A stretch of DNA of 64,000 nucleotides, from NCBI GenBank assembly GCA_015272395.1, contig JACYLQ010000001.1, forward strand, positions 248,001 to 312,000, read 5' to 3'. Positions 8,388-37,859 of this stretch are shown here, piece after piece (the stretch's first letter is position 1; each line of letters begins with the position of its first letter). A model generated the notes under the pieces. That model was not told the origin of the DNA. It worked only from the letters and a program-made list of their open reading frames with translations, and did not search any database. The translations under genes were made by a program, and so were the position numbers. Origin of the DNA: Calothrix sp. C42_A2020_038 (GTDB lineage Bacteria > Cyanobacteriota > Cyanobacteriia > Cyanobacteriales > Nostocaceae).

Positions 8388-8394
8388 ACCTGTG

Positions 8395-8427
8395 ATTCTC
8401 GACTTCGCAAAAGAAGTCGAGAATTTT
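8395..8427 (+). terminator. Rho-independent terminator after isiA
   Basis: Stem ATTCTCGACTTC / GAAGTCGAGAAT (12 bp, 6-base loop) followed by TTT. It lies between isiA and the Pcb-like gene, so the second gene is either read through or has its own short promoter. Confidence 0.75.
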
Positions 8428-8461
8428 ACTAACTTCGTTAAACTTTAATTTCTTTCATCTC

Positions 8462-9424: not shown

Positions 9425-9457
9425 TTCAAATCTGTACAACACAGCGCATTTAATACT

Positions 9458-9484
9458 GCCTACAGTTAACTCCTAACTGTAGGC
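9458..9484. terminator. Inverted repeat between convergent genes
   Basis: Perfect 11-bp stem GCCTACAGTTA / TAACTGTAGGC with a 5-base loop, between the convergent antenna gene and arsS. There is no strong T-tract; it may serve either strand. Confidence 0.5.
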
Positions 9485-9545
9485 AAATTCTTGAGATTTT
9501 TATCATTAACAGTCTCGCAAATGGAAAATTACTGCTTAAAAAATA

Positions 9546-10517: not shown

Positions 10518-10596
10518 ATCTGTTATGGATTTACATAGGGTGCGTGACCCCACAAAAAACATCAATCTAGCCAACTGTTTTTATCGCATCACACAC

Positions 10597-20568: not shown

Positions 20569-20862
20569 TTATAAAACGATAACTTGTTCTTGTCTAGGTT
20601 TTTCTGAACCATAAGTAATCGTTCGTTTCACGGAACCTGCATCCAATACGTATACTCGCACGGAGTCTTCATCTGGCTTGATTAATTTTTCTACTTGAAT
20701 TTGTAGTTGAGTAAATTGTACCGCAGTTAAGAAGCACTCAAACACGCTGTACTGTGTCCATGTTCCGTAACCAGTAAGCATTTTATGCAAGCGAGTCCGG
20801 CGCCTGTTAGCTGCTTTGTTATCAGGTAAATCGTAAATAATCAGATAGAACAGTGTAGTCAT
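20569..20862 (-). CDS. cas2: CRISPR-associated protein Cas2
   Basis: 97 residues. Small ferredoxin-like fold; YLIIYDLPDNKAANRRR holds the conserved Asp at residue 11. Cas2 dimers bridge two Cas1 dimers in the spacer-integration complex. It is the last gene of the cas8-7-5-6-4-1-2 run, followed directly by the array 1 leader. The last codons lie in sequence that has a degenerate counterpart in the leaders of arrays 2 and 3. Confidence 0.96.
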   Translation of the reverse strand: MTTLFYLIIYDLPDNKAANRRRTRLHKMLTGYGTWTQYSVFECFLTAVQFTQLQIQVEKLIKPDEDSVRVYVLDAGSVKRTITYGSEKPRQEQVIVL

Positions 20863-20961: not shown

Positions 20962-21939
20962 TTAACGTAAAATCAAAGGTTTATAAGGAGTTCCTTCTTG
21001 TAGATGACGACTTAACAACCGTGCTTGTAGTTCTACTGCACGTCTATATGTACATCGATAACCGAATACAGGATGTTTAAATTCATCGTTCATTTTACGT
21101 TCAAATGCTTCTAAAAAGCGCTTTCTTCCAGATTCAGACAACTGATAGGCGCCTAAACTTTCAGTAAAATCATTGGGTTTAACTTCACCTTTACGTAATA
21201 CTCCAAACACCACGCTATCAGCAACCAAGGCACGAAATTCTTCCATCAAATCCAAGACCATCGAAGGTTGCCCATGATGAACTTCGTGTAAATAACCAAT
21301 GTAAGGGTCGAGTCCGGCAAGATGAACACCTGCTGTAACCTGAACTCGTAATAAACCATAGGCAAAACTTAACAGCGAATTCACCGGGTCAGTTGGTGGG
21401 CGCCGGTTTCTACCAGTAAAAGTCCATTGTTTACCAACGATACGGTCCCAACAAGCAAAATATTCTCGTGCAGCTAAACCTTCAATTCCTCGTACTTGGT
21501 CAATAGTTTGCTGGCTTTGAACTTGGTTCTTACGCTGTTTAAGAGGATTATTTCGTTCGTTATGACGGTATAAAATTAGGTACTGGTTATGAATTTTCGC
21601 TGTAACTATTGCTTTGACTAATTCTAAGCGCCGGACTTCATCGTTATAAACTTGATATTGTGCCAGCCTTAATTGACCGTTGCGTGAATTCCCTGGAAGT
21701 GCAGAGCCTAAATATTTACCGAATAGGGAAAGATAATGTATGGGCATTCCTAGCTCTAGAGCATAGACTAAGGCATCTCCAGTAACTTGGGGATTACCCA
21801 TAAGTACCACTTGTTCTACTGTTTGGGCAGGGATATTCTTTTTATTCCAAGTTCCATCTTCTTGTTTAAGGGCAACAGTAAAAGCTTCGTAGTTTTTACT
21901 AAGAACAGCTTCAGGTTGAGTAACGTAAAGAACTGTCAT
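20962..21939 (-). CDS. cas1: CRISPR-associated endonuclease Cas1
   Basis: 325 residues, normal for type I-B/I-D Cas1. The metal-binding integrase residues are visible: E153 in RGIEGLAAREYF, H218 in IGYLHEVHHG, and D230/E233 in MVLDLMEEFRALVADS. It integrates new spacers with Cas2 and, judging from the neighbouring gene, Cas4. It lies 26 nt downstream of cas4. Confidence 0.97.
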   Translation of the reverse strand: MTVLYVTQPEAVLSKNYEAFTVALKQEDGTWNKKNIPAQTVEQVVLMGNPQVTGDALVYALELGMPIHYLSLFGKYLGSALPGNSRNGQLRLAQYQVYNDEVRRLELVKAIVTAKIHNQYLILYRHNERNNPLKQRKNQVQSQQTIDQVRGIEGLAAREYFACWDRIVGKQWTFTGRNRRPPTDPVNSLLSFAYGLLRVQVTAGVHLAGLDPYIGYLHEVHHGQPSMVLDLMEEFRALVADSVVFGVLRKGEVKPNDFTESLGAYQLSESGRKRFLEAFERKMNDEFKHPVFGYRCTYRRAVELQARLLSRHLQEGTPYKPLILR

Positions 21940-21965: not shown

Positions 21966-22547
21966 TTAGTTAGACGCACGCATTGCTTTGACTTCAAAGG
22001 GCAAACAAATTCTTTGCAAGCTACATGATTGACACTTTTTGGTATTGTCAATTGGAGACGGCATGGCGCCAGTAGCAGCATTTTGAGCTAGTACAATTGC
22101 CTGTTTGGTTGCTTGTCGAAGTTGAGGTGTAAAAGCTACTGTTTCTCGTCTTCTGCTAGTGTGGTAAAAAATATCACCATAAGGAATGCTACATCCAGTG
22201 CGTTCTTCTATACATATAGCAGCGGCACAAAGTTGAAAATGGTCATTGAGATGTTGTGCCATTTTGCCTTTTTTATATTCAACTGGCACTAGTTGACCAT
22301 TACACTCTTCAACAGCATCGATAATACCCGCAACTTTTAATCGGTCACTCCATACCCATTGTTGTTGATGAATTACAGTATCACCTTCAGTGAGTATCGC
22401 TTCTTCGTTGATATTGCGGTGTAAGTGGCGCCCTAATATTATGTGTTCGTTATCTTCCATTTCGCCCAACACATATTCTAGATAGAACCTGCGCGCGCAA
22501 TATTCCCAAGCGTTTAAATAAGCTAGAGGTAAATAGTTTTCTATCAT
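21966..22547 (-). CDS. cas4: CRISPR-associated exonuclease Cas4
   Basis: 193 residues. RecB-like nuclease with D77 (GIIDAVE), E90 and K92 (PVEYKKGK) as the active site, and C17, C172, C175 and C181 as ligands for the iron-sulfur cluster. In type I systems Cas4 trims prespacers and sets PAM and orientation; that fits the PAM-anchored repeat acquisition seen in array 3. Directly upstream of cas1. Confidence 0.95.
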   Translation of the reverse strand: MIENYLPLAYLNAWEYCARRFYLEYVLGEMEDNEHIILGRHLHRNINEEAILTEGDTVIHQQQWVWSDRLKVAGIIDAVEECNGQLVPVEYKKGKMAQHLNDHFQLCAAAICIEERTGCSIPYGDIFYHTSRRRETVAFTPQLRQATKQAIVLAQNAATGAMPSPIDNTKKCQSCSLQRICLPFEVKAMRASN

Positions 22548-22653: not shown

Positions 22654-23667
22654 CTAAATAATTACTATTTGCCCCATTCCCATTGTGGTTTTGCGACCTA
22701 CCCCAGCGAAGCAGGCAAAATGAGCTAGGATGGTGGCAATTTTGGCTTGTTCAGCATCTGCGAAATGGTATTTCACACGACCTTCGGCGCCTATTTCTCC
22801 ACCTCCTTCCATTTTCATGGCGTAGGTTTTGAGTTCGTAGGCAGAAACAAAACCGTTCCATTCGACTGGGGGAAAGTGCAAGTTTTCAGGGGCAAATTTA
22901 TTCCAGCGTTTTAGTAAACCGTTGAAAACTAATTCTAATAATGGAAATGCCTGGATATACTTTCCTTGTTTAAAACTTGTGGGAGTAAGAAATTCTAATT
23001 GTACGAATTTCTGAGCAGGTATTTGCATGAGTTTTTCATAGCTGCTTGCTTGCACGACATCAACCCAAGTATTTAACCTACAAGGTACTCCTGTAATGTT
23101 AATCTCATTGCCTAAATCTGAACTCATCCCCCATAGTAGTGGCGCCAGTAATTCTTTTTGTAATAAGTTGATTTTGAGCAATATCTTTTTGGGAGAGCAA
23201 TACTCTATTCCTGAAGTTATTGGTAAATTATCCTGTTCGTGTAAGGTTTGAGCCAAATTTGCGTCTGCTTTAGCAAACCAGTGGAAGCATAAAGCGTGAA
23301 CCGCACGTGCAATTGTGGGAGGAAGAGGAATAACAGGGTTAATTGCTACTTGAATACTATGTAAAGAATTGTTGTTTACTTCTACTCCTGTTAATTCGTA
23401 GGTTTTTTGACGCCATTCCACCAGATTATTACTACCGATTTGCTGTAAAATTGATTGCATCAAGTTTTCATAAAAAGCAGGTTGTGGCAATACTGGCATA
23501 ATCTTTGTTACGCCATCAATATACCGTTGTGGTATCCAAGCTGGAGATAATTCATTTGGCAACCAACATATTAACGGGGTTGCCTCACATACTGCTTGGG
23601 TTGACCGTAAAACAACGCTCAGTCCAGCCAAATTGGTTTCTGTACTAGTATCTGTGATATAAGTCAT
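22654..23667 (-). CDS. cas6: CRISPR RNA endoribonuclease Cas6
   Basis: 337 residues from the ATG at 23667 (a GTG nine nt upstream is also possible); the start overlaps the end of cas5. The C-terminus has the glycine-rich loop GVGRKTTMGMG that is the hallmark of Cas6 RAMP proteins. It cuts pre-crRNA at the base of the repeat stem, here predicted to leave ACUGAAAC on each crRNA. The protein is longer than typical 200-280 aa Cas6, in line with the larger cyanobacterial forms. Confidence 0.9.
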   Translation of the reverse strand: MTYITDTSTETNLAGLSVVLRSTQAVCEATPLICWLPNELSPAWIPQRYIDGVTKIMPVLPQPAFYENLMQSILQQIGSNNLVEWRQKTYELTGVEVNNNSLHSIQVAINPVIPLPPTIARAVHALCFHWFAKADANLAQTLHEQDNLPITSGIEYCSPKKILLKINLLQKELLAPLLWGMSSDLGNEINITGVPCRLNTWVDVVQASSYEKLMQIPAQKFVQLEFLTPTSFKQGKYIQAFPLLELVFNGLLKRWNKFAPENLHFPPVEWNGFVSAYELKTYAMKMEGGGEIGAEGRVKYHFADAEQAKIATILAHFACFAGVGRKTTMGMGQIVII

Positions 23668-24394
23668 AACGGGCACCAGTAGCTCGAAGCTGTAAAGGTA
23701 AATATCCAGGTTCTATTATCCTGTCTTTATTGATTTGAGCTTTTTTGCTGGAGAAAGGATTAATGTGGTTAAAGGTTGTTTTTTTACCTAAGTCATCCAT
23801 CGGTTGGATAGTAAAGCTGTTGTTAGGGTTTGATGTAAAGCTGGGTTCAGGAGTTTTTTGAGTGGCGCCAGGTAGAAACTGGAAAAAACAACCTCGTTTG
23901 CCAAAATAATTAACTTGAGCAAATAGTTGCGTGAGTTCATCTAGTTGCGTTGTTTCACCGCAACAAATTTGTAAGTTTCCCTGTAAATGTATCCATTCCC
24001 GAAATACAAAACCGTCTTGCATGGGTATAGTCAGGCGATTTTTATCGGCTTTATCTGCGATTTGGTCATAATAACGCAGTTTATAACCATTGCGATTTAC
24101 CACTAACTGTTCTGGTGGCATTATATATATGTGTAAATCCCGAATCCAAGTAAATTGGTTTTTAATCCACGAGTCGAAGTCATTTTGATGGTATTTTCCC
24201 TCACCTTCGAGTAACACTTTCAGAAGTGCCATTTTAATAGTGTATGGTGTGGGGACTAAGTTAGACCTGGCAGCCATACTCGTTGCATCAGAACGTTTAA
24301 GCGAGAATAAACTTACAGGTTGATAGGTAACGGTTAACCACCTCTCAATATTCCCCTCTGCTGGGGTCAGGGGTGAGGTCTTATTCTTCGGCAT
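23645..24394 (-). CDS. cas5: CRISPR-associated protein Cas5
   Basis: 249 residues from the ATG at 24394, preceded by GGGAAAG and overlapping the cas7 stop by 14 nt. Weakly conserved RAMP fold; the segment YQPVSLFSLKRSDATSMAA followed by PTPYTIKMALLKVLLE resembles the N-terminus of Cas5 proteins that go with DevR-type Cas7. It caps the 5' handle of the crRNA in Cascade. Assignment rests on its position between cas7 and cas6 and this N-terminus. It does not resemble Csc1 of type I-D. Confidence 0.75.
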   Translation of the reverse strand: MPKNKTSPLTPAEGNIERWLTVTYQPVSLFSLKRSDATSMAARSNLVPTPYTIKMALLKVLLEGEGKYHQNDFDSWIKNQFTWIRDLHIYIMPPEQLVVNRNGYKLRYYDQIADKADKNRLTIPMQDGFVFREWIHLQGNLQICCGETTQLDELTQLFAQVNYFGKRGCFFQFLPGATQKTPEPSFTSNPNNSFTIQPMDDLGKKTTFNHINPFSSKKAQINKDRIIEPGYLPLQLRATGARYDLYHRY

Positions 24395-25337
24395 TATCAC
24401 TTTCCCAAGGTTGTGCTTGTGCAATAATTGTTTGGATTTGTTCGGCGAATTGCGCCATTGACTCAAAATCAAAGCAGTGAATTGTATCGGCGCCGTTAAG
24501 ATTATTCAAGGTATCAGCCAAGCTGTGAATTTGACGGTGATAGTCAGTTTCCAAAGGACTAAGCATTGGCGCCGGACAGCGACGAGTGCTTACGGTGATT
24601 ACTCCTTCAAAGTAATCAGGGTGAGGTAAATTTGTATTACGCTTGGCGCCGTTAGGTTGCATGTATGTATAAAGTACACTCTTGAGTAAAGCATCCAAAC
24701 GCTTTTTACGCTCTAAACTATCGATGCTGTATTTGAAATTGTGGGGATTATAACCAATGCGGAAAGCTTCAATATTCAAAACTGTAGCGTATAAACCCGA
24801 ACTTACCTGAACATTATAGGGAGTAGGATTATCAACACCGTATTTGGCATGGAAGTAACTTTGGGTTTTCACCAGAGTAGGTAAACCAACAATGGCACCA
24901 AATTCAATAGCAGATTCGCGTTTGAGTGTTTGTCCTCCTTTGACCGTCACCATAAACCCTTCCAAGTCGCTAATTGTACAGCATTGAAGTACCTTATCAG
25001 TTTTGGCGCCTAAATCAGCATCTTTATCGTTAAATATTAGCTGATTTTCCTGAATATCATAGCCAATTCTATCAGGATTAAATAGTTTACCACCTCTAGA
25101 TAAACTTAATCCTTCTTCAATTGCAATCCGGTGTAAATGTTCAGCTTGAATATGTTTGAGCATATCACCAGAAACACCATTTACATATTCTGGTTCACTC
25201 ATCCCTTTTTGGATAATATAAAAGCGACGAGTTAAAGATTGATTTCCCTCGTTGCCTTCGTTATTCAAAGCATGAAGTTGCCAAGATAATAAACCACTGA
25301 TGGAAATAGAGTAAGCGAGAAAGCTTGTGTTTTTCAT
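24381..25337 (-). CDS. cas7: CRISPR-associated protein Cas7 (DevR/Cst2/Csa2 family)
   Basis: 318 residues. The N-terminus YSISISGLLSWQLHALNNEG and VNGVSGDMLKHIQAEHL are typical of the DevR/Csa2/Cst2 Cas7 group, as is FGAIVGLP. Cas7 makes the helical backbone of Cascade along the crRNA. This group goes with types I-A and I-B (including the MYXAN variant), not with Csc2 of type I-D. A 155-nt gap separates it from the cas8-like gene upstream. Confidence 0.9.
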   Translation of the reverse strand: MKNTSFLAYSISISGLLSWQLHALNNEGNEGNQSLTRRFYIIQKGMSEPEYVNGVSGDMLKHIQAEHLHRIAIEEGLSLSRGGKLFNPDRIGYDIQENQLIFNDKDADLGAKTDKVLQCCTISDLEGFMVTVKGGQTLKRESAIEFGAIVGLPTLVKTQSYFHAKYGVDNPTPYNVQVSSGLYATVLNIEAFRIGYNPHNFKYSIDSLERKKRLDALLKSVLYTYMQPNGAKRNTNLPHPDYFEGVITVSTRRCPAPMLSPLETDYHRQIHSLADTLNNLNGADTIHCFDFESMAQFAEQIQTIIAQAQPWESDNAEE

Positions 25338-25492: not shown

Positions 25493-27283
25493 CTAAGGTT
25501 CTTCTGCTGGTTTTATATTCTCTGTATCCTCATCTTTTGATTTACCCCAACCTTTTGCATATCCATAAGCAATTAATAGATTCGCTATCAAACTAGAGCC
25601 ATACTTATCAATTAAATGAATCAATTCATCTAAATCATCCTTAGTCGTCCAAATGCGACGGGGTTTTTTCAATGTACGTAAATCATCATCAATACGTAGA
25701 TTCTCATTCTCATAACTGGCAAGAAACGACATGATTTCAATAATAAAATCCTTTTTAGAACCAGATTGGCTACTTAAACGCTGTGCCAAACCATAAATTC
25801 TTTCCCAACCAGTATCTTTAGTATGATTATCTTTGTCACAAATTGTTCCAGCGTAAACAGTCGCGCTATTAATCGCTTTTGCAATATTCAAAAATCCCTG
25901 GTTTTCAATAATTTTAGTTAAATTCAAATCTCCGTCATCTTGACGGTACCTATTATTACTTAAATTTTTTATCATCAAATTGAGTCCTTGTTTTGAAAAA
26001 AGTGCTACCCTTGCATTGGCGCCTGCCAATTTCTTAGTAATATAATCGGCATAGCTAACTTGGAAACGGAAAAACTGGTATAAGTCATTACCACTAATAA
26101 AATCTCGGTATGCAGCAATTAATTCGCTATGACCATCATCAATAGAAAGTGCGCGGACTACATTGAGATGTTCGTTTAATACATTTTGATAATCAAGTAG
26201 TTCATTGTAGTCATGAGGACATATCCAAGCGGGAAGTCCTAAGCTAAAGACTTCTTTTACTCCGTAAACTTGACCTTTAGAACCAAAATGAGTTCCGGCA
26301 AAGTTGTTAACGAAGTGATTTACTGGTTTATCCCAGTCGTCAAAATCATCTTGTTTGTTCTCTGCTGCTGCACGGTTATAATTAAGTAATTCCTGACAAA
26401 ACTTAAGTACCAACTCTGCATCAAACCGCGCGGCGCCATGTTTTCCTGTAGGTGGATTATATATTATTAAATTCTTTAAAACAACCTCATATTTACTCAA
26501 AGATATATCGTAAGGCTGTAACGCAACAAGGCGCCAGTCTTCAAAACTTTTAGCAATTTTCACCTTTTGTGCGACACCAAAGTTAAATAACCCATTGGCT
26601 ATTAACCATAAACTCAACCAATCTGTTTTTTGTGAATCAACTTTATTACTGTCTGCTTTAACTCTATTAACTCCCTGAACACAATTAGGTAAATAAATTT
26701 TTACTGCACTAGCATTAGGCAATTTACATCCAGTTGCAGTTTCAAAGAACTCTGCAACGAGTTCTGTTGTAGCATTTTCTTTGCTAAAACCTTCCAATAA
26801 CGCAACAATTAAGGCGCCGAAATAATTCCTAAGCTTCCAACCATCTAGCCATAAATTATTATGATTACGGTCATGACGCATCGAAGTTAAGATGGCGCCA
26901 TTCTGAGTTCTAGGGTCTGGAGGTTGTGGTGATTCTTCCGTCCGTTCTTTACCCCGTTGTTGAAGCATAAACTCGTGGTAAACTTTACGAGCTTCGTCAT
27001 GTTCAACAGTGTCAAAAATGTTCGCCTCCTCTGGTATATTACTAATATCTGTATTTTTTCCTTTCACAACAGGAAAAGGAGAAGTGTACTTGATTTTAGC
27101 TATCGGTTCTAAATTCACACACTTTTTGAACTGGATACAATAGTGCGTCCCCTGGTCAATAAGTTGGATTTCGCTTTTTTGCTTACTCTCTTTAAGAGCA
27201 TATTCAATAACGCGCGCTAAACCCAACAAGAAAAATGTGTCAGCATAATTACCGTACTTTTTTGGAATCAATAATCGTAACAT
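25493..27283 (-). CDS. Cas8-like large subunit of the type I effector
   Basis: 596 residues with no motif I can name. It is placed exactly where the large Cascade subunit is expected, upstream of cas7-cas5-cas6. N-terminal LLIPKKYGNYADTFFLLGLA, a central IYNPPTGKHGAARFD, and a Lys/Glu-rich tail are visible; there is no HD motif or palm-domain GGDD, so it is not Cas10d. I infer PAM recognition and Cas3 recruitment, as for other Cas8. Sequence is fast evolving in this family, so the I-B/MYXAN or I-A assignment needs a profile search. Its start is about 190 nt from array 2. Confidence 0.7.
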   Translation of the reverse strand: MLRLLIPKKYGNYADTFFLLGLARVIEYALKESKQKSEIQLIDQGTHYCIQFKKCVNLEPIAKIKYTSPFPVVKGKNTDISNIPEEANIFDTVEHDEARKVYHEFMLQQRGKERTEESPQPPDPRTQNGAILTSMRHDRNHNNLWLDGWKLRNYFGALIVALLEGFSKENATTELVAEFFETATGCKLPNASAVKIYLPNCVQGVNRVKADSNKVDSQKTDWLSLWLIANGLFNFGVAQKVKIAKSFEDWRLVALQPYDISLSKYEVVLKNLIIYNPPTGKHGAARFDAELVLKFCQELLNYNRAAAENKQDDFDDWDKPVNHFVNNFAGTHFGSKGQVYGVKEVFSLGLPAWICPHDYNELLDYQNVLNEHLNVVRALSIDDGHSELIAAYRDFISGNDLYQFFRFQVSYADYITKKLAGANARVALFSKQGLNLMIKNLSNNRYRQDDGDLNLTKIIENQGFLNIAKAINSATVYAGTICDKDNHTKDTGWERIYGLAQRLSSQSGSKKDFIIEIMSFLASYENENLRIDDDLRTLKKPRRIWTTKDDLDELIHLIDKYGSSLIANLLIAYGYAKGWGKSKDEDTENIKPAEEP

Positions 27284-27473
27284 TTGGCGTGGTGCCGTTC
27301 CTTTATTTACTTTCCAATATTATACACCTCGTTGGAATAGGGGTCTTCCAAAATTAATCAAATGCTTGTAACCTATATATGGCACCATTTATGGTATCGC
27401 TATATAAGCAAAGCCTGCCAAAACGCAACAGCTAAAAAACTTACAGACTATCAAGTTGACTTAAAATTTGAGA

Positions 27474-29409
27474 GTTTTAGTCCCGCGAACGGGATTCGTA
27501 AGGTTTCAAGAGGCAGCAGACTGAAATATTGGTTCTCGACCAAAAAGTTTCAGTCCCGCGAACGGGATTCGTAAGGTTTCAAGACTTTGTGATCATCGAC
27601 GAGGCGCACATGTTTTTAAGTTTCAGTCCCGCGAACGGGATTCGTAAGGTTTCAAGTATACGAGTCGTTTAATATCGACTCGTCGTTTTCGAGTTTCAGT
27701 CCCGCGAACGGGATTCGTAAGGTTTCAAGGGGTGGTGACGCAACTTGGTATTCTATGCCAAGATGTTTCAGTCCCGCGAACGGGATTCGTAAGGTTTCAA
27801 GAGTTTAGGAGATTATCTCCTAAGCAAATATTCTGGGGTTTCAGTCCCGCGAACGGGATTCGTAAGGTTTCAAGCTAATGAAATTCAGCAATTAAACTCA
27901 AAAACATAGTTTCAGTCCCGCGAACGGGATTCGTAAGGTTTCAAGCAATCAACTGCCGCTAACAGTAAATCCAAATCAAGGTTTCAGTCCCGCGAACGGG
28001 ATTCGTAAGGTTTCAAGTCGTTTCCAAAAGGAAGCAGCAGAGCGCATGATTGTTTCAGTCCCGCGAACGGGATTCGTAAGGTTTCAAGACTTGCCCCTAT
28101 ATTGTTTTAGGGGAACAAAAGAGGTTTCAGTCCCGCGAACGGGATTCGTAAGGTTTCAAGTTAATCCTGGAGATAAACTACTTGGCTGATTATATAGTTT
28201 CAGTCCCGCGAACGGGATTCGTAAGGTTTCAAGTCAAAAGCTCTGACAAAAATCTGAACTCAGTTCAAAGTTTCAGTCCCGCGAACGGGATTCGTAAGGT
28301 TTCAAGCTTCTAGGGGGGAATAGTAAAAAATTTCACATTTTTGTTTCAGTCCCGCGAACGGGATTCGTAAGGTTTCAAGGAGATATGGGGTAGGCAAGCA
28401 GAGGTTGCAAGGGATGTTTCAGTCCCGCGAACGGGATTCGTAAGGTTTCAAGCAAATTTCTTTCTATCTCAAAAGCAAGACCCATAAATGTTTCAGTCCC
28501 GCGAACGGGATTCGTAAGGTTTCAAGCTATCAAGGAGATATTAACCGAGCAATTGTTAGAGAAAAGTTTCAGTCCCGCGAACGGGATTCGTAAGGTTTCA
28601 AGGAAGGTGTTTATTTAAATGCGAGTCAGCAAAGGTCTGTTTCAGTCCCGCGAACGGGATTCGTAAGGTTTCAAGTTAAAAAATGGCATCATCCCTAGGA
28701 ACTCTTGAGATTGTTTCAGTCCCGCGAACGGGATTCGTAAGGTTTCAAGATCTGTTATTGTGATTACCAAGATTCCTCCTTTGTTGTTTCAGTCCCGCGA
28801 ACGGGATTCGTAAGGTTTCAAGCATTACCTGCGTATATACGCGGGTAATGTTATTTGAGAGGTTTCAGTCCCGCGAACGGGATTCGTAAGGTTTCAAGTA
28901 ACCGCTATCGCTCAGAGATGCTGGAACTAGAAAGTTTCAGTCCCGCGAACGGGATTCGTAAGGTTTCAAGGTAATGCTTCTGACTGACACAATTCTTCTG
29001 AAAAGTTTCAGTCCCGCGAACGGGATTCGTAAGGTTTCAAGTTGAGTTGGAATAATTCTAAATTCTCCAGACTTAAAGTTTCAGTCCCGCGAACGGGATT
29101 CGTAAGGTTTCAAGGGGTGGAAAGTTGTCTTCTTCTTTCGACTTCGTTTATGTTTCAGTCCCGCGAACGGGATTCGTAAGGTTTCAAGATGTCCAGGTGG
29201 TAATCTAAATTCAAAACCTGGTGTAGTTTCAGTCCCGCGAACGGGATTCGTAAGGTTTCAAGGTAAAGTTACCCATACAAATATTCAAAGTCTTTTGAAG
29301 TTTCAGTCCCGCGAACGGGATTCGTAAGGTTTCAAGATTATCTGATTATGACTTTAACTGTTTCAAGATTAAGTTTCAGTCCCGCGAACGGGATTCGTAA
29401 GGTTTCAAG
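27474..29409 (-). CRISPR. CRISPR array 2 (27 repeats)
   Basis: 27 repeats of 37 nt and 26 spacers of about 35-39 nt. The leftmost, oldest repeat (27474-27510) begins GTTTTAG instead of GTTTCAG; the other 26 appear identical. Transcription is leftward from the leader at 29410, so the newest spacer is 29337-29372. The repeat is the same as in array 3. The array lies between the split cas3 and the cas8 operon, all on the minus strand. Spacer 27584-27619 encodes a DEAH-type segment in its plus-strand reading; spacers 28823-28861 and 28089-28123 can fold on themselves. Confidence 0.98.
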
Positions 29410-29796
29410 ATCGCGCTCTACGAAGCTTACAGAGTAAGGGTTCCAGAAAGGATTTTCGTGAATGCCAAAATCGAGTCGATTTCAGCCGCGCTTGTTGAGA
29501 CTTATTTGCAGTTATTACAACTGTACAAATGCTGTAATTATTATCTTGTCTAGGTTCTGGGCTTTTTCGTGAACCTACGGGGGTTTTTGACCTCGCTTCG
29601 GTTTACGAAACATCAAGCTTATTGCTTCATCATAAGACAAGATGTTGCTTTTGTCTAGGTTAATGTAACAATTTTACAGACCTTTGGTCGCATAGGCGCA
29701 GCGCCCTGACTATTAATAGATATAGTTGGAAGTACTCAACTTCATCGCTGGTAAATTTATTTAAGTCGAGTTCTTTAACTGGGTAGAGGTTATGTT
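29410..29796 (-). promoter_or_regulatory. Leader of CRISPR array 2
   Basis: Nearly the same as the array 1 leader for the first 160 nt or so, with the -10 box changed to GATAAT on the minus strand. Beyond that it diverges but keeps a degenerate counterpart of the cas2 3' end (…TTGTCTAGGTT near 29650). It runs to the stop codon of the cas3 C-terminal ORF and was copied whole to 37271-37657. Confidence 0.8.
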
Positions 29797-31713
29797 TCAA
29801 AATTGGCTCAGATAAGGGTAAGTTTGAGGTAAAAATCGTTTTATCCTTTGCCAGCTTTGAGTTATTGCTTTCTGCGCTTCTGGATGTAACTCTATGTTCC
29901 GAAGCTTTGCTATATTTTTACTATCCCATCCGCTTGCCCAAGCTGAGTGATGGCGCCCTGCTGCCATAATTACTGTGTAGTAAATGTGTTTAATTTCCTC
30001 AGTGTCGGCGTTAAATTCAGTTTCTAGTAGTGGGACTAAAGATTGTTTGAGAATCTCCTGTGCGAGGAAAGCGCTTTCAACTGCGTGGTTGGGACGTTTA
30101 TTTTTACGTTCGTAAGCTTTTAGAGTTTGCTGTTGCTGCTTGTCTTCTGGGTTGTAGTCTGTATGTGCAAGTAGATGGTTCCTAGGGTTAGTACCTTTAA
30201 ATTGCTGATAAGCTATTTGTTGCCATCCTCGCATGACTTGCTGCCATTTGGTTTGGAGTTTGCCTAAGTCATGGGTAAAGATAGCTAAAAAAACTAATAT
30301 TTCAAACAATGCTTCTGTTTGGCTTTTTGTTGCTTTCAGAAAGATTTTGGCTTTGATGAATTTTCCACCTGCTGTTAATAATTCATCACGCACGCTGATG
30401 TATGTGATTTTTTCAGAAACACCATTTTTGATGATAGTGGTTGTAAAAGGTTGGCGCCAGTATTTCCACATTAATACTAAATGTCCTATGTAGTTATCCA
30501 TTTTGTATTGGTACTGGCTAGTAACTTCTTTCTCTTGTTTCGTAGGTGATTGAAAACCATTCCCAAATACATCTATACCTATTTGTAATCCAATATGCTC
30601 ATCATAGGCAATAAATCGAGGATTAACTAATATCCGAATACTGCTAATTAAAAATTCACGCGAAGTAATTGACTTACAATTAGGTTCTGCGTAAGTTTCT
30701 GATTTATGTTTTGGTGGTACCTCAATTCGTTTAAAAATCCAATCTATGCTAAAGTATAGGCTTTCTTTAAAATCTCGCCAAGCTTTGCATAAAGTCGAAA
30801 TAGGAACTGAGAAAGGCAGTAATTTATTGAGGTCAATAGTTTCTGTATCAAAATCTGTAATAATTGAGTTATCCCAAGTAAAAATACTACGACTATCTAC
30901 ATTTCTTATCAATTTTTGCGCGGTACCTTCCTCTCCTTTAAAAACAGCATCTTCAAAGTTTTGCTCAAACTCCATTCGACTGTCTTGTCTACGCTTTTGT
31001 TCAAGCGAATCTTCTTGTGTATGTACTTGATTTAGCCATTCTTTCTCAAGCCTAAAACCAACGTTTTGATTTACAATGTCAGAGTTAGTATGTGTTTCTA
31101 ATACTTGCCATGTTAGCTCACATATCCCTTTTGCATATGGCAAAAAGCTGATTTTCTTATCTTGATTATCTTGTGCTTCTGAGTCAATATCTGCCTCAGC
31201 TAATTCTATATTTTCCTGATTAACTTCTACTGTTCGATAAACAAAAACCTCTCCTTGTTCACCATTAAACCTCGCACAGCGTCCCGCACGTTGCAGTAGC
31301 GAATTCATCGGGCAAAGCTGAACATGCATAACTTCACAGGTAATATTAATCCCCGCTTCAATAACCTGCGTAGATATTAGAACATGGCAGGCGCCTGTAT
31401 CATGGGATTTCCACTTCTGAGCAAACGTTTCTTTGAGAAAAGACTCTTTTGCCGCACGATGTTCCGGTAAAAATCTTGAATGAAGCAAGGTAATATTTAG
31501 TTCAAAGTCAAAGTTGAGTGTTTCTAAGTCTTTATATAACGCCTGTGCAGAAGAAACAGTATTACATATAGCTATCACCCGCTTGCGTTGATGCGCGCGG
31601 ATGTCATCCCAAATAACTTGTGCAGTCAGAGGTTGAGAAAACGCGCGGAATGTTCGGCAACGGTTTGCTTCAATTAGTTGTAAGTCGGTGTTTTGTATTT
31701 GGATAGTTTCCAT
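29797..31713 (-). CDS. cas3: Cas3, C-terminal part: helicase domain 2 plus HD nuclease
   Basis: 638 residues. The first third is the second RecA-like helicase domain: AICNTVSSAQALYKDL, STQVIEAGINI and LLQRAGRCARFNGEQG (motif VI). Towards the C-terminus is an HD nuclease: THDLGKL, then RPNHAVESA and AAGRHHSAW. The HD domain after the helicase is the reverse of the usual Cas3 order. The ORF starts right where domain 1 of the upstream ORF breaks off, in the same frame, so this is half of one ancestral gene. Residues encoded just before its ATG (…LLSLVERINYYVP) still read as protein. Confidence 0.9.
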   Translation of the reverse strand: METIQIQNTDLQLIEANRCRTFRAFSQPLTAQVIWDDIRAHQRKRVIAICNTVSSAQALYKDLETLNFDFELNITLLHSRFLPEHRAAKESFLKETFAQKWKSHDTGACHVLISTQVIEAGINITCEVMHVQLCPMNSLLQRAGRCARFNGEQGEVFVYRTVEVNQENIELAEADIDSEAQDNQDKKISFLPYAKGICELTWQVLETHTNSDIVNQNVGFRLEKEWLNQVHTQEDSLEQKRRQDSRMEFEQNFEDAVFKGEEGTAQKLIRNVDSRSIFTWDNSIITDFDTETIDLNKLLPFSVPISTLCKAWRDFKESLYFSIDWIFKRIEVPPKHKSETYAEPNCKSITSREFLISSIRILVNPRFIAYDEHIGLQIGIDVFGNGFQSPTKQEKEVTSQYQYKMDNYIGHLVLMWKYWRQPFTTTIIKNGVSEKITYISVRDELLTAGGKFIKAKIFLKATKSQTEALFEILVFLAIFTHDLGKLQTKWQQVMRGWQQIAYQQFKGTNPRNHLLAHTDYNPEDKQQQQTLKAYERKNKRPNHAVESAFLAQEILKQSLVPLLETEFNADTEEIKHIYYTVIMAAGRHHSAWASGWDSKNIAKLRNIELHPEAQKAITQSWQRIKRFLPQTYPYLSQF

Positions 31714-31782
31714 TGGTACATAGTAGTTGATTCTCTCAACCAGGCTTAATAAAGGGGCTTATCGCTGTTGGAGCCTAGAATT

Positions 31783-31826
31783 CGTTAACCTAAGCATGAG
31801 AGTCACCCCTCATGCTTAGGTTAACG
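31783..31826. repeat. 18-bp hairpin inside the cas3 gap
   Basis: Perfect 18-bp inverted repeat (CGTTAACCTAAGCATGAG and its complement) around an 8-base loop, within the 120 nt that separate the two cas3 ORFs. In the cas3 frame the stretch contains four stop codons. It looks like an inserted palindromic element; no second copy was seen in the window. Confidence 0.75.
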
Positions 31827-31833
31827 GAGTATA

Positions 31834-32448
31834 TCAATCATCTATGATATTTTTTATCTGACCTGCAAGCTCATCAGTTAAAGTAGCAGTCATTAATAGA
31901 AATGGAGAAATACCTTTAACCTGCTGTAACACTTTTAAAACAGTTGTAAAAGAGCGCTCAGGGTCAAGAAGGTGTAATTCATCGAACACCAAGTAAGATG
32001 CAAAAACGGCGCCTGCGTTGATATTAGCAGAACCACGACCAACCGAATAAGGAATATTTAGAAAGCTGCTCAACATTTGGTCAATAGTGCAAAAAACAAT
32101 ATCACCCTCAAAACGTGGGTCTTCAGGGTTTTCACCTGTTTGCAAAGTCACCACAATAGGATGAGGTAGTTTATGTAATAGTGCCCATTGCTGTACTAGT
32201 TCTTCTGTTCGCTGACGTAAGCTATTTGCCAAAGTTCGTAAAGGAACAACATAGATTAATTTCTTAGGAAAGTCGAGGTTAAAAGCTTTCGCAAACAGAA
32301 AAGGTGCTATTGCCGTCTCAGTTTTTCCTGAACCAGTAGGCGCCCGAAGTAGAGTATTTTCTTGGTTGAGGATGCGAGTAATAGTTTGTGTTTGGAAAGC
32401 GCGCGGGTTGTAGGTAGTGAGAGTTTGGAACAAATGGAGAATATCCAT
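31834..32448 (-). CDS. cas3: Cas3, N-terminal part: helicase domain 1
   Basis: 204 residues from the ATG at 32448 (a GTG at 32487 would give 217). RecA-like domain 1 of a superfamily 2 helicase: Q-type FQTQTI, Walker A APTGSGKTE, YVVPLRTLANSLRQR, box II DELH and motif III TATLT. It stops right after motif III, where the linker to domain 2 is expected. The downstream ORF at 31713 supplies domain 2 and HD. Both halves keep intact motifs, so either two polypeptides assemble or the gene is broken. Confidence 0.88.
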   Translation of the reverse strand: MDILHLFQTLTTYNPRAFQTQTITRILNQENTLLRAPTGSGKTETAIAPFLFAKAFNLDFPKKLIYVVPLRTLANSLRQRTEELVQQWALLHKLPHPIVVTLQTGENPEDPRFEGDIVFCTIDQMLSSFLNIPYSVGRGSANINAGAVFASYLVFDELHLLDPERSFTTVLKVLQQVKGISPFLLMTATLTDELAGQIKNIIDD

Positions 32449-32459
32449 AAAAGTAGATA

Positions 32460-32671
32460 CGCGGTTTATCAAAGATATTTCCAACACTTACCTCAAGCTA
32501 AATGCAGCAGAGGAACAAATTTTCCAATCAGAAATAGTTCAACTAGAACCAGTTAAACAGGAGGTTGTTATGGAAATTATTACCAGTTGGCAGTTACAAG
32601 GTAGACAAGAAGGAAAGTTAGAACTAGTCATACGTCAACTTTATATTTGTCAAACTCAGATTTACTCATAG
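32460..32671 (+). pseudogene. C-terminal remnant of an Rpn/DUF4351-like gene
   Basis: About 70 codons in the plus frame of 32417: FIKDISNTYLKLNAAEEQIF, then LEPVKQEVVMEIITSWQLQG and RQEGKLELVIRQL. This is the usual C-terminal tail of cyanobacterial Rpn-family (recombination-promoting nuclease/transposase-like) proteins. The catalytic N-terminal part is missing; the fragment abuts and partly overlaps the 5' end of cas3 on the other strand. Confidence 0.6.
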
Positions 32672-32780: not shown

Positions 32781-34193
32781 ATGAATCTCAACTGCCACAG
32801 TTTCCCTCATCCCCAACATTTACAAAACTTAGCAAAAGGCTCTTTAGAGCAAGTTCAGAACCTTACCCGCGCGCTTCGGCTATGGGTATTGTTACGTTGG
32901 CTGTATAGTGATAAAGGAAACACCATCGGTGACAGCTTTACTTATAATGAATGGCGCCAAACATTTTTTAGCAAAACACACAAAGACGAAAAACAAGAAG
33001 ATATACAAAATCATAAAGACCCTAACTGTGTTTGCAATAAAACAACCAAACAGTGGCTAATCGATTTTGAAGTTAATTTAGATGAATGGCGAAGTGTTTT
33101 GCAGCAAAAAATATCCATAGCTGACTCCGATATAGACAGAATTTTAGAAGAACGTTTGTTTGCTCAGGTTCGTAAATCGCTACAAAGTGACTTTGATTTA
33201 TTAGTAAACCGAAAATGCTTACATCAACTAGAGAATGTAACCGGGAGAAGTAAACATTTCTGTCGGGTTGAAGAATTAAAAATATTTACCACTTCAGAAA
33301 ATATAACAAGTGATTTAACGCAAAAAAAACAAAAATGTATCGCTGGAGCATTGGGTATATTTAGCTTTCTTGACCCAAGATACCCGCTTTTAGCTGAAGA
33401 ATTTTCCGAAGATATAGACGAAGACAATCACCGCGTCTTTTTATACGTTGATTATGTTGTACCAGAATCTAGCCATATACAAGATGTAGTAGACGAAATT
33501 CAAAGCGAATTACAACAGATTTGGGATTCTGGAAAAATACAACCTCTATTGTTATCTTATCATAGCGCGCACCAAAACCAAATTAAAGAGTGTGCAGTAT
33601 ATCCAGTTTGTATATACTTCATGGAGTACGCTAAGTATCTTTGTGCTTATGGTCGAACCCCAAAAGATGAGATTAACTGGTATAAATATCGTCTTGATAG
33701 AATTATATCCCAAGGTCTAGAACTATTAGAATGGCAAGACCCGCGTGTTCCGCAGTTATTAAGAGAGCAACATCAAATGAATAAACTATATACTCCAAAA
33801 ACTGTAAACGACAAATTAAAAGAAGCTTGGGGATGCGACTTTTACAAAACAAAATCACTGATGATATTACGGTTTGATCAGGATTTTGATAAGAATTATG
33901 TGAAAGGAATAAACGTTCACGATACTTTTAAGCCAATTGAATACAAAACTGCATTTGAATTAATCCAACAACATACACTAGACCCAGGACAACAAAAAAA
34001 TATACTAAAAGCTTTTAAATCACGTCCAAACACAGATGCTTACTACCAAGTTTATTACCGAGTAACAGATTATTACGTACTTAGATGGCTACGGGCTTTA
34101 GGCTCAAAAGTTGAAGTTTTATTACCTTGGGATTTACGACAACAAATGGTTGATGAAATTCAAAAGACTTGGAATTTATACGCTAACTTATAG
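32781..34193 (+). CDS. WYL/WCX-type CRISPR-associated regulator (TIGR03985-like)
   Basis: 470 residues. The C-terminal end, TDYYVLRWLRALGSKVEVL then PWDLRQQMVDEI, matches the WCX tail of WYL-domain transcription factors; the upstream region (residues 200-420) has the alternating strands of a WYL domain. Cyanobacterial proteins of this sort, such as Synechocystis Sll7009 next to a CRISPR locus, affect crRNA levels. Here it is the only plus-strand gene in the island, between cas3 and array 3, 39 nt from the first repeat. I infer that it controls the locus; the ligand is unknown. The N-terminal part may be an HTH but is not clear. Confidence 0.75.
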   Translation: MNLNCHSFPHPQHLQNLAKGSLEQVQNLTRALRLWVLLRWLYSDKGNTIGDSFTYNEWRQTFFSKTHKDEKQEDIQNHKDPNCVCNKTTKQWLIDFEVNLDEWRSVLQQKISIADSDIDRILEERLFAQVRKSLQSDFDLLVNRKCLHQLENVTGRSKHFCRVEELKIFTTSENITSDLTQKKQKCIAGALGIFSFLDPRYPLLAEEFSEDIDEDNHRVFLYVDYVVPESSHIQDVVDEIQSELQQIWDSGKIQPLLLSYHSAHQNQIKECAVYPVCIYFMEYAKYLCAYGRTPKDEINWYKYRLDRIISQGLELLEWQDPRVPQLLREQHQMNKLYTPKTVNDKLKEAWGCDFYKTKSLMILRFDQDFDKNYVKGINVHDTFKPIEYKTAFELIQQHTLDPGQQKNILKAFKSRPNTDAYYQVYYRVTDYYVLRWLRALGSKVEVLLPWDLRQQMVDEIQKTWNLYANL

Positions 34194-34231
34194 GTAACAC
34201 TAAATTTTATTTAACAAAATTATTACTTGAG

Positions 34232-37200
34232 GTTTCAGCCCTGCGAACGGGAATCGTAAGGTTTCAAGCTCTCCGCTTGCATACTCACTGCTTTGGAAAC
34301 ATAGTTTCAGTCCCGCGAACGGGATTCGTAAGGTTTCAAGAGATTTTAAATTTGATTGCAATTTGACTTTAGCGAGGTTTCAGTCCCGCGAACGGGATTC
34401 GTAAGGTTTCAAGTTTAGATAAGCCTATAAAAGCCCTTTTTTCGTTTTCGTTTCAGTCCCGCGAACGGGATTCGTAAGGTTTCAAGTCGCCAGGTTTCTT
34501 TTATTGGGACACACAACTTGTGGTTTCAGTCCCGCGAACGGGATTCGTAAGGTTTCAAGTTTAAAAATTTATCAAAAATGGTTTGATTTGGATGTTTCAG
34601 TCCCGCGAACGGGATTCGTAAGGTTTCAAGCAACGAGTTCAAACCCACGATTAATAGTCATGAGTTGTTTCAGTCCCGCGAACGGGATTCGTAAGGTTTC
34701 AAGAATAACTTTAAAATTATTAGCACTTTGAATCTAAGGGGTTTCAGTCCCGCGAACGGGATTCGTAAGGTTTCAAGTTCTTTAACAAATCTATTTGCGT
34801 TTCGTCGTATGCAGTTTCAGTCCCGCGAACGGGATTCGTAAGGTTTCAAGAAAATGTATCTAGATGGAATAATACATCAATCATTTTTGTTTCAGTCCCG
34901 CGAACGGGATTCGTAAGGTTTCAAGGATGGTACAAAAACAATGTAGCTGGAACTAAAGTGTTTCAGTCCCGCGAACGGGATTCGTAAGGTTTCAAGACTA
35001 TTGTGTTATACACATCAAACGTCATGATGATTTGTTTCAGTCCCGCGAACGGGATTCGTAAGGTTTCAAGGAATTCTGAGTAGTAATAGTAGCCCCTACT
35101 ATTCCTGTGTTTCAGTCCCGCGAACGGGATTCGTAAGGTTTCAAGATTCATTTATCGGTGCAAACATTCCTTGTAATTGATTGTTTCAGTCCCGCGAACG
35201 GGATTCGTAAGGTTTCAAGTAATAAGGTAGTTGGGTCAGTTTTAGAATATTGGTTGTTTCAGTCCCGCGAACGGGATTCGTAAGGTTTCAAGCCACTCAA
35301 GGAGCCAGTCAAGTAATGTTCCAGGGGAGTTTCAGTCCCGCGAACGGGATTCGTAAGGTTTCAAGTTCATTTATCGGTGCAAACATTCCTTGTAATTGAT
35401 TGTTTCAGTCCCGCGAACGGGATTCGTAAGGTTTCAAGTGCTCTACTGCTTGTCTGATTTCAGGTAAATTAGGTAGGTTTCAGTCCCGCGAACGGGATTC
35501 GTAAGGTTTCAAGTTACGGAGTGCCATCATAGATGTCTAGATTTTTAGATCGTTTCAGTCCCGCGAACGGGATTCGTAAGGTTTCAAGTATTTAAAATAT
35601 CAAAATATGTGTCGTTTATTTTGAGTTTCAGTCCCGCGAACGGGATTCGTAAGGTTTCAAGCTCTGCCGGGGTGAAATACGGTTTATACCCAGAAACCAT
35701 TGTTTCAGTCCCGCGAACGGGATTCGTAAGGTTTCAAGATAAGCGCACTTGGGTTTTTTATTTCGCAATGAATGTTTCAGTCCCGCGAACGGGATTCGTA
35801 AGGTTTCAAGCAATTTCTATTTCGACTGCCCGCGCGTCTATGACTAGTTTCAGTCCCGCGAACGGGATTCGTAAGGTTTCAAGGACAGCGCCGTTCGGAC
35901 AATTTTGCTCTAGATCGATGTTTCAGTCCCGCGAACGGGATTCGTAAGGTTTCAAGAGTAATGTTGTTATATCTAATGATCAAATAATAGAGAGTTTCAG
36001 TCCCGCGAACGGGATTCGTAAGGTTTCAAGTCTAGATCTTTCTTGAGATGTCTTTTAATGACATCAGTTTCAGTCCCGCGAACGGGATTCGTAAGGTTTC
36101 AAGGTCTAACTTCGTTGCATATGCGCCACTGTTTTTAAGTTTCAGTCCCGCGAACGGGATTCGTAAGGTTTCAAGGTTTCAACCAATGAGCCTACTGGCA
36201 AGATTAAATTGAGTTTCAGTCCCGCGAACGGGATTCGTAAGGTTTCAAGCACCAAAAGCATCTAACGGTTCACCACCATTTGTCAAGTTTCAGTCCCGCG
36301 AACGGGATTCGTAAGGTTTCAAGAGAACTGTCATCATCGGGTGCTTTGTCGTTTAGAGTTTCAGTCCCGCGAACGGGATTCGTAAGGTTTCAAGGTAGAC
36401 AGTTTTCTGGTTGAATCCAAGGGTGGAAAGTTTCAGTCCCGCGAACGGGATTCGTAAGGTTTCAAGAATCAGTGGGCGATCTTAATAAAAGTCATTGGTG
36501 AGTTTCAGTCCCGCGAACGGGATTCGTAAGGTTTCAAGCCTGTAGTTAACCCTGTTGCTATTAAGTCAATTGATAGCGTTTCAGTCCCGCGAACGGGATT
36601 CGTAAGGTTTCAAGCAAGCAGAATTTTAAAATTAGCGTCTTCACGCCAAGTTTCAGTCCCGCGAACGGGATTCGTAAGGTTTCAAGATTGCGGGTTTAAG
36701 ATTTTCTTCATTTCCAGATAAGTTTCAGTCCCGCGAACGGGATTCGTAAGGTTTCAAGTAAATATGCAAACATATGGTTGACAAGCTCTAAAAATGTTTC
36801 AGTCCCGCGAACGGGATTCGTAAGGTTTCAAGCATTAAGCAATGACAAAGCTGATGCAGAACGTATTGGTTTCAGTCCCGCGAACGGGATTCGTAAGGTT
36901 TCAAGGGAAGCAGCTGTAATAGAGAGATTATGTTTAATCCTGGTTTCAGTCCCGCGAACGGGATTCGTAAGGTTTCAAGAAGGATAGAACATGATAAAAA
37001 GATAATAAGCTCTATTAGTTTCAGTCCCGCGAACGGGATTCGTAAGGTTTCAAGCTAGTGGAGCTTCAGTAAATAAAGTTAAGTTGGGTTTCAGTCCCGC
37101 GAACGGGATTCGTAAGGTTTCAAGCTAAAGTATCAGTTCCAACAGTTTTATTAAAACTAGGTTTCAGTCCCGCGAACGGGATTCGTAAGGTTTCAAGATC

Positions 37201-37270
37201 TTCGCATTTTTACCATTGTGGATATATAAACCTGTTTCAGTCCCGCGAACGGGATTCGTAAGGTTTCAAG
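34232..37270 (-). CRISPR. CRISPR array 3 (42 repeats)
   Basis: 42 repeats and 41 spacers counted, the longest array here. The repeat is the same as in array 2. The oldest repeat (34232-34268) carries three changes (GCCCTGCG for GTCCCGCG and GAATCG for GATTCG), as expected at the leader-distal end. Leader at 37271 onward, newest spacer 37198-37233. Spacer 35146-35182 (37 nt) and spacer 35366-35401 (36 nt) are the same sequence apart from one terminal base. Short ORFs reading through the repeats on either strand are artefacts of the repeats. Confidence 0.98.
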
Positions 37271-37657
37271 ACCGCGCGCTACGAAGCTTACAGAGTAAGG
37301 GTTCCAGAAAGGATTTTCGTGAATGCCAAAATCGAGTCGATTTCAGCCGCGCTTGTTGAGACTTATTTGCAGTTATTACAACTGTACAAATGCTGTAATT
37401 ATTATCTTGTCTAGGTTCTGGGCTTTTTCGTGAACCTACGGGGGTTTTTGACCTCGCTTCGGTTTACGAAACATCAAGCTTATTGCTTCATCATAAGACA
37501 AGATGTTGCTTTTGTCTAGGTTAATGTAACAATTTTACAGACCTTTGGTCGCATAGGCGCAGCGCCCTGACTATTAATAGATATAGTTGGAAGTACTCAA
37601 CTTCATCGCTGGTAAATTTATTTAAGTCGAGTTCTTTAACTGGGTAGAGGTTATGTT
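37271..37657 (-). promoter_or_regulatory. Leader of CRISPR array 3 (duplicate of array 2 leader)
   Basis: Practically identical to 29410-29796, shifted by 7861 nt; the visible differences are in the first 10 nt (ACCGCGCGC as in array 1 versus ATCGCGCTC). The copy continues without a break into the tail of cas3. Confidence 0.88.
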
Positions 37658-37859
37658 TCAAAATTGGCTCAGATAAGGGTAAGTTTGAGGTAAAAATCGT
37701 TTTATCCTTTGCCAGCTTTGAGTTATTGCTTTCTGCGCTTCTGGATGTAACTCTATGTTCCGAAGCTTTGCTATATTTTTACTATCCCATCCGCTTGCCC
37801 AAGCTGAGTGATGGCGCCCTGCTGCCATAATTACTGTGTAGTAAATGTGTTTAATTTCC
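37658..37859 (-). pseudogene. cas3 3'-end fragment
   Basis: About 67 codons of the cas3 C-terminus, including AGRHHSAWASGW and the native stop, copied with the leader. Identity to 29797-29998 ends abruptly at 37859, where unrelated AT-rich sequence follows. It has no start or promoter of its own and is a relic of the duplication that founded array 3. Confidence 0.88.

Follow-up and report, generated by a model that had tools for sequence, protein, structure and literature searches.

Our in silico analysis indicates that the cas3 gene in the stretch of 64,000 nucleotides from Calothrix sp. C42_A2020_038 studied here (the window) represents a family of loci in which Cas3 is encoded by two adjacent genes. 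We consider it quite probable that these genes yield a two-chain Cas3, in which a RecA1 subunit and a RecA2-HD subunit together rebuild the ATPase site, and that the copy in the window was later altered by a dispersed repeat and a frameshift. In this family, the position of the split is conserved, the motifs are intact, both halves are under purifying selection, their divergence is correlated, and the genes stand in an operon context.

The cas Gene Cluster of the Window and Its Divided cas3 Gene

The two cas3 open reading frames are located on the minus strand (32487-31834 and 31713-29797) and, as the first-pass annotation of this DNA had recognized, share one reading frame and are separated by an intergenic spacer of 120 nt (31714-31833). 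The first gene (31834..32487) codes for the RecA1 domain only (Pfam DEAD, E 7e-20), and the second (29797..31713) codes for RecA2 and a C-terminal HD nuclease (Pfam Cas3-like_C_2, Helicase_C and Cas3_HD). With DEAD on one side of the spacer and Helicase_C/Cas3-like_C_2 on the other, the Pfam matches bear out the notion that the gene is broken between its two RecA domains. A GTG at position 32487 would provide a first half of 217 aa, and an in-frame ATG at position 32448, which is probably the start codon, one of 204 aa. The first half contains Walker A (GSGKT), DELH, and TAT motifs that are invariant, or nearly so, in an alignment of 16 sequences including that of the window. The second half begins with ATG and comprises 638 aa, compared to 677-712 aa in 21 intact split loci.

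Further cas genes on the minus strand code for the type I-A large subunit Cas8a (25493..27283; PADLOC Cas8a, E 1e-29, with no match in Pfam or NCBIfam), a Cas7 of the DevR/Csa2 family (24381..25337; Pfam, NCBIfam, and PADLOC profiles), Cas5a (23645..24472; PADLOC Cas5a, E 6e-72), Cas6 (22654..23676; best PADLOC profile Cas6d), Cas4 (21966..22547; best PADLOC profile Cas4d), Cas1 (20962..21939; Pfam Cas_Cas1), and Cas2 (20569..20862; Pfam CRISPR_Cas2). Cas10 was absent among the ten genes of the window that were scanned by profile. By these profile matches the cas set is type I-A-like: it holds the complete type I-A gene set of Cas8a, Cas5a, Cas7 (DevR/Csa2), Cas6, Cas4, Cas1, and Cas2, with Cas8a and Cas5a on I-A profiles and Cas6 and Cas4 best on those of type I-D. 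The C-terminal part of Cas8a (residues 509-578) matches the Cas11a profile (E 5e-5), which suggests that the small subunit may be fused to Cas8a or internally started. A gene for a WYL-domain CRISPR-associated regulator (TIGR03985) was found by profile matches on the plus strand (32781..34193), and two CRISPR arrays with an identical repeat (27473-29431 and 34231-37271) flank the cas3 pair and this regulatory gene.

Distribution of the Two-Gene Arrangement

We searched for the second half of cas3 in 100 genomes (that of the window and 99 relatives) and found it in 15 of them, the genome of the window included. Among the 14 others, 12 hold 13 loci with separate genes, and the remaining two (G028 and G064) possess one frame across the junction. 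A scan with the first half (alignment A1), performed with one genome per species, yielded 46 loci, 45 of them cyanobacterial and one from Bryobacterales; several genomes contribute to both counts. For each locus, the stop of the first half and the start of the second half were located. Two genes were present in 29 of the 46 loci, which together with the window and L074 gives 31 split loci. One frame runs across the junction in 12 loci (L059-L063, L065-L069, L072, and L077), with L060 classed by its frame at the junction despite a stop at the 5' edge of the locus, and L072 by a single ORF spanning both matches. L074 and L077 were added from a sample of the phylum as loci reaching the junction; loci in which no start of the second half was found (L042, L044, L052, L064, L070, L071, L076, L078, L079, and L080) stand outside these counts. 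In all 31 split loci, the cut falls into the linker between RecA1 and RecA2.

We also sampled the order evenly, with some genomes in common with the species scan, and found RecA1 in 33 of 388 genomes (that of the window included). The RecA1 open frame measured 212-252 aa in 21 of these 33 genomes (split) and 817-933 aa in 10, and was partial in 2; these lengths report where RecA1 ends and not whether RecA2 follows, and one of the 21 short-frame genomes (G027) lacks most of the second half. The even sample of the phylum contained RecA1 in 8 of 386 genomes, again including that of the window.

Seven plasmid records were also found, two of which (L039 and L024) are already counted as split. Four of the five that we examined carry a two-gene cas3 (Anabaena cylindrica PCC 7122, Nostoc sp. 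ATCC 53789, Planktothrix agardhii, and Allocoleopsis franciscana PCC 7113), three of them with overlapping genes (by 20, 20, and 14 nt) and one with a gap of 51 nt at the junction; the record from Deinococcus gobiensis carries a one-gene cas3 of 844 aa. Since annotation in the four two-gene records gives each half a name of its own ("DEAD/DEAH box helicase" versus "CRISPR-associated helicase Cas3'"), the arrangement is easily missed. Flanking cas8 genes are present in 27 of the 46 loci of the species scan, split and one-frame alike, with many loci ending before cas8 could appear. On the PCC 7122 plasmid pANACY.01 (L089 941-10665), the split cas3 pair (8004-8645 and 8626-10665) lies upstream of I-A-like genes and directly downstream of CRISPR-annotated RAMP, csx19, and TIGR03986 genes, which perhaps form a type III-like module; the situation in Planktothrix agardhii is similar.

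Structural Models of the Junction and of the HD Domain

For L069, a one-gene homologue of 893 aa, a model built with 34 alignment rows reached a pLDDT of 77.7 and a pTM of 0.80. Its residues 1-587 match Cas3 helicase cores, best that of T. fusca Cas3 (Z 19.9, 477 aligned, rmsd 4.5), and the comparison with type I-A Cas3 gave a Z of 16.2. The match of the first half ends at residue 204 of this protein and that of the second half starts at residue 214; in the model, the junction is thus positioned between the last helix of RecA1 (192-204) and the first strand of RecA2 (212-215), in a stretch whose residues 205-208 have a pLDDT under 50.

When modeled alone, the C-terminal 290 residues of the second half from FI2-JRJ7 gave a pLDDT of 92.6 and best matched type I-A Cas3'' chains up to the last helix (7tr8_Q, Z 14.5, 197 aligned, rmsd 3.5), with the first non-Cas3 match at Z 8.1. 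Only the structural comparison made this assignment clear: Foldseek returned weak matches (best E 0.013), and the HD profile had no sequence match among solved chains up to E 5. In 28 HD alignment rows, chosen for their complete C-termini, the residues H17, H87, D88, K91, H123, H149, H194, H195, and D282 are invariant. The pattern of motifs and the alignment of helices point to D282, which lies in the last HD helix (262-288), as the putative counterpart of D205, one of the HD residues described for T. thermophilus Cas3 (PMC5965380).

Conservation of Both cas3 Halves

The SF2 core of Cas3 (two RecA domains, Walker A, DExH, and motif VI) is present when the two chains are taken together. To assess motif integrity, we checked Walker A, DELH, and TAT in the first halves and motif VI, HDLGK, GRHH, and the final LR(L/I)(C/S)D in the second halves. 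All of these were kept in 21 of the 31 split loci; eight fail at least one, among them L031 and L054, which lie close to contig ends, and L053, which fails only in its first half, and two run past the end of the sequence. Seven of 11 one-frame loci pass all motifs, with L062, L067, L068, and L077 failing, the last of which is cut by the sequence end. The motif with the last aspartate is in frame in 22 of the 31 split loci; of the nine others, L031, L054, L058, and L074 reach close to where the available sequence stops.

Values of dN/dS ranged from 0.04 to 0.26 for the first half and from 0.10 to 0.31 for the second half in 14 chosen split pairs, and amounted to 0.10 and 0.19 in one control pair without the split. 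The comparison of the window with NIES-4105 gave 0.10 for the first half and 0.19 for the second, and that of its first half with three congeners 0.10-0.12. These ratios indicate purifying selection on both halves, of a strength comparable to that in the control pair. Loci with more distant first halves also have more distant second halves (r = 0.81 across 28 loci, with 0 of 2000 permutations as high), as expected of halves that travel together, although common descent alone would give the same result.

With a mean distance of 0.19, compared to 0.36 for the second half, RecA1 is the more conserved part of the protein, and it keeps Walker A and B, just as RecA2 keeps motif VI. These features argue against a RecA2-HD protein that acts as a lone nuclease, with RecA1 serving in another or only a regulatory role and no two-chain motor being formed. 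We regard this explanation as unlikely, even though type I-G immunity has been reported to be weakened, and not abolished, at full expression when the helicase activity of Cas3 is missing (PMC10482374).

Broken second halves are present in the window, PCC 7103, HK-06, CSU_2_0, and the Peltigera cyanobiont 210A. Loci L042, L052, L064, L070, and L071 contain the RecA1 gene, or part of it, with no recognizable start of RecA2-HD nearby, and fragments were seen in L042 and L052. Since it is not unusual for the second half to be broken or missing, the system appears to decay often. One might go further and view the split itself as the mark of pseudogenes, that is, of a non-working Cas3 kept only by recent descent, and the eight split loci that fail the motif check, the truncated HD domain of the window, and the genomes without a recognizable second half would be in line with this. 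Nevertheless, we find this view improbable, since no checked motif is lost in 21 of the 31 split loci, purifying selection resembles that of the control pair, and the split spans deep branches.

Spacing and Reading Frames of the Two Genes

The junctions of the 31 split loci comprise 14 overlaps of 4-32 nt between different frames, 10 gaps of 2-22 nt (2 nt in L056), and 7 gaps of 51-376 nt. These spacings are counted from start codons chosen by script, some of them TTG; with ATG in place of TTG, the genes of L046 would not overlap. The halves are in different frames in 27 of the 31 split loci and in the same frame only in the window, L034, L035, and L055. Since same-frame halves are thus exceptional (4 of 31), the single frame of the window does not point to a gene that was whole until recently. 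Within the genus, the gap amounts to 11 nt in PCC 7103 and HK-06, 85 nt in FI2-JRJ7, 107 nt in NIES-4105, and 120 nt in the window, and the first halves of the congeners and of the window end at corresponding residues. The idea that the second genes have a ribosome-binding site in common was rejected; AGGA-like sequences precede the second ATG in only three of the 31 split loci (L046, L047, and L053).

The 14 overlaps between different frames are of a kind that could be bridged, and programmed frameshifting or read-through might hence join the halves into one Cas3 chain. Against this stand the seven loci with gaps of 51-376 nt, among them the window with its four stops and USR001 with a whole gene in between. 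Moreover, the frame of the second gene extends upstream of its start by no more than 1-15 open codons in the 14 split loci found in the 100-genome search, and by up to 38 codons (in L038) in the full set of 31 loci, and an inspection of the junctions by eye revealed no common slippery heptamer. A joined chain therefore seems to us no more probable than the pseudogene view.

The Palindromic Element in the Spacer

The spacer of the window holds a perfect hairpin (31783..31826, minus strand) with an 18-bp stem (31783-31800 / 31809-31826) and an 8-nt loop, and its read-through meets four in-frame stops, counting that of the first half itself; both features had been correctly noted in the first-pass annotation. 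The hairpin is set inside a 25-nt inverted repeat (88%). After the stops, the read-through continues as ...LLSLVERINYYVP-M; this protein-like sequence before the second ATG is present in the window as described, but it is not kept in the gaps of the congeners. As RNA, the gap folds with -45.4 kcal/mol (z = -5.63), a value that none of 200 shuffles reached. We rejected a role of the hairpin as a terminator or promoter: no intrinsic terminator was found in the region 31500-32100 (shuffle mean 0.3), which contains one promoter-like site, on the other strand, compared to 1.3 expected, so that neither signal is above chance. Because the congeners manage without the hairpin, a role in steering reinitiation, as suggested earlier, is not indicated either.

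In agreement with the idea of a palindromic element, 12 matches to it were found at 7 distinct places in the genome of the window (G000), two of these places being short partial matches of 25-30 nt. The copy in the window (31760..31842, minus strand) has 88-89% identical counterparts, which cover most of its length, at two other places and shorter matches at four more. Since the similarity to the other copies spans 31760-31842, the repeat reaches at its edge into the stop codon that ends the first half. Four other copies adjoin unrelated genes (for a glycosyltransferase, a protein kinase, a cytochrome P450, and rbfA). The repeat was found in none of six congeners, and a few matches occur in 3 of 14 more distant genomes. 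With several similar copies dispersed in its genome, the element is a candidate for a miniature mobile palindromic repeat.

Other loci have different material in the gap. That of NIES-4105 contains another palindrome, of high copy number (80 matches in G002 and 73 in G005, both strands counted), and folds strongly (z -6.49), the gaps of FI2-JRJ7 and Symplocastrum fold no better than chance (z -0.93 each), the Mastigocoleus gap contains other dispersed repeats (45 matches), and in USR001 a whole DUF4926 gene lies between the cas3 halves (L051 6682-6921). Since the inserts vary from locus to locus, the spacer looks like an ordinary landing site, and the hairpin is not a shared feature. Judged by this comparison, the hairpin of the window is an ordinary dispersed repeat that later landed in a spacer already present. 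Like the dispersed palindromes of the REP type, it is a short palindromic repeat in an intergenic spacer, and the repeat in the NIES-4105 gap begins with GTAG, as does the GTAG-tagged class of these palindromes (PMC3733652). The repeat of the window differs from them by its low copy number (7 places) and by a stem without GTAG at its start.

Evolutionary History of the Split

The proposal of the first-pass annotation that the palindromic element recently inserted into a whole cas3 gene and split it would fit an element that is a dispersed repeat of this genome and occurs in none of six congeners, and halves that share one frame, but it can practically be dismissed, since the congeners PCC 7103, HK-06, NIES-4105, and FI2-JRJ7 lack the element yet have the split in the same position, and the split reaches across many families. 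A comparison with relatives had been set beforehand as the test of this proposal; it revealed the same two-gene arrangement, without the hairpin of the window, in congeners and distant relatives, and the split is therefore older than the hairpin.

We calculated one tree with 43 rows and a second one with 38 of these (L030, L049, L068, L072, and L077 were left out), both as quick trees, the second with SH-aLRT support only. The split and one-gene states require three changes on either tree. Contrary to expectation, the AU test rejects a single clade of all split loci (p 2.6e-53; 29 split rows kept), and there must therefore have been several splits or some re-fusions; several splits would fit the trees, and so would one split followed by re-fusions. 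The one-gene locus L069 sits beside the split loci L036/L045/L051. Another one-frame cas3, that of a Richelia MAG (L062, 4382-6976), is grouped with the split loci L047/L053 and is a possible re-fusion; its second half shows a later change of frame near residue 627. That Deinococcus and Bryobacterales have cas3 as a single gene suggests that this form is ancestral. As far as these comparisons of sequences can date it, the split is old and conserved across cyanobacterial families.

A Frameshift in the Copy of the Window

The first-pass annotation credited both halves with intact motifs. This does not apply to the second half of the window, which ends 44-46 residues short of those of two intact congeners and lacks the C-terminal LRLCD; that motif lies downstream, in another frame. 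Near residue 630, the gene is one base shorter than in three congeners, and the conserved tail therefore continues in another frame. A comparison with congeners places the frame-change region and this out-of-frame HD tail (...EYFQLYLLIVRALRLCDQRSVKLLH) at 29660..29830 on the minus strand. Of the presumed HD metal ligands, HDLGK, GRHH, and the other His motifs are present, and the last Asp is out of frame. Since the out-of-frame tail is still well conserved, the frame change looks young. The segments 29432-29998 and 37293-37859 are identical (567 of 567 nt) and contain the CRISPR leader and the 3' end of cas3, including the frame change, beside the second array; this copy represents a recent duplication or gene conversion.

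With the last HD helix and the conserved aspartate out of frame, the cas3 copy of the window is probably impaired. Since both are lost, we expect impaired nuclease function; an HD-site variant of type I-G Cas3 is reported to have behaved like a strain without Cas3, with aggregation of the protein (PMC10482374). The loss of interference considered in the first-pass annotation is thus likely in the window, but through the 3' frameshift of the second half and not through the hairpin. A working two-chain Cas3, which had been named as the other outcome, would be the best reading for the family, with the copy of the window probably impaired.

A Putative Two-Chain Cas3 and Its Relation to Known Systems

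We propose that the locus of the window is a member of a type I-A-like CRISPR-Cas family of cyanobacteria in which Cas3 would be built from the products of two adjacent genes. The first gene would provide a RecA1 subunit and the second a subunit of RecA2 with the C-terminal HD nuclease. Both polypeptides would have to be made, to associate, and to act in interference. Upon assembly, the ATP site would be rebuilt across the interface, with Walker A/B contributed by one chain and the arginines of motif VI by the other, and the rebuilt motor would drive DNA into the HD nuclease. In the genome studied here, a dispersed palindromic repeat would later have entered the spacer, and a separate frameshift would have put the final HD helix out of frame. 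More tentatively, one may picture an obligate two-subunit motor, cut in the middle of its ATPase, in which RecA1 functions as a switch: RecA2-HD alone would at most nick DNA, the joining of RecA1 would start processive unwinding and degradation, and the mode of cutting would be set by assembly. The conserved cut between RecA1 and RecA2 is a natural test of whether an SF2 motor runs as two chains, and of the effect on DNA degradation, and a naturally two-part Cas3 could serve controllable tools for long-range deletions.

No Cas3 split between RecA1 and RecA2 is described in the literature searched, which includes few subscription papers and hence cannot show that the arrangement is absent from print. 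The accessible part of PMC3150331 describes no such cut, and a review of cyanobacterial type I systems makes no use of the word "split" (PMC11903412). Where the available text of PMC10212523 speaks of a split cas3 in cyanobacteria, helicase versus nuclease is meant. The same holds for the described Cas3 splits of types I-A and I-D, which separate the helicase from the HD nuclease (PMC5965380, PMC10212523, PMC11127173).

Type I-D systems, with Cas3' and Cas10d, are likewise abundant in cyanobacteria and have helicase and nuclease on different chains (PMC10212523), and Cas6 and Cas4 of the window best match I-D profiles. However, the helicase of type I-D is one gene, and its HD domain resides in Cas10d (PMC10212523). 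The type I-G Cas3 shares the domain order RecA1-RecA2-HD with the present family: its HD domain is at the C-terminus (PMC10482374), as it is at the end of the second half here, and both halves of the window match the I-G model cas3_GSU0051, far below its whole-protein cut-off. In contrast to the two genes found here, the type I-G Cas3 is described as one protein (PMC10482374), and instead of the I-G gene set of Cas7, Csb2, and Cas8g (PMC10482374), PADLOC assigns Cas8a, Cas5a, and a DevR-family Cas7 to the window.

The archaeal type I-A Cas3'/Cas3'' resembles the present family in that two genes of a type I-A-like cas set code for Cas3, and Cas3'' chains are the best matches of the HD model (7tr8_Q, Z 14.5). 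In the archaeal systems, however, the cut parts the whole helicase (Cas3') from the nuclease (Cas3''; PMC5965380, PMC11127173), whereas in the present family it lies inside the helicase and leaves HD fused to RecA2, an arrangement (RecA1 | RecA2-HD) shared by every one of the 31 split loci. This conserved separation of RecA1 from RecA2-HD is different from the known helicase/nuclease split of Cas3.
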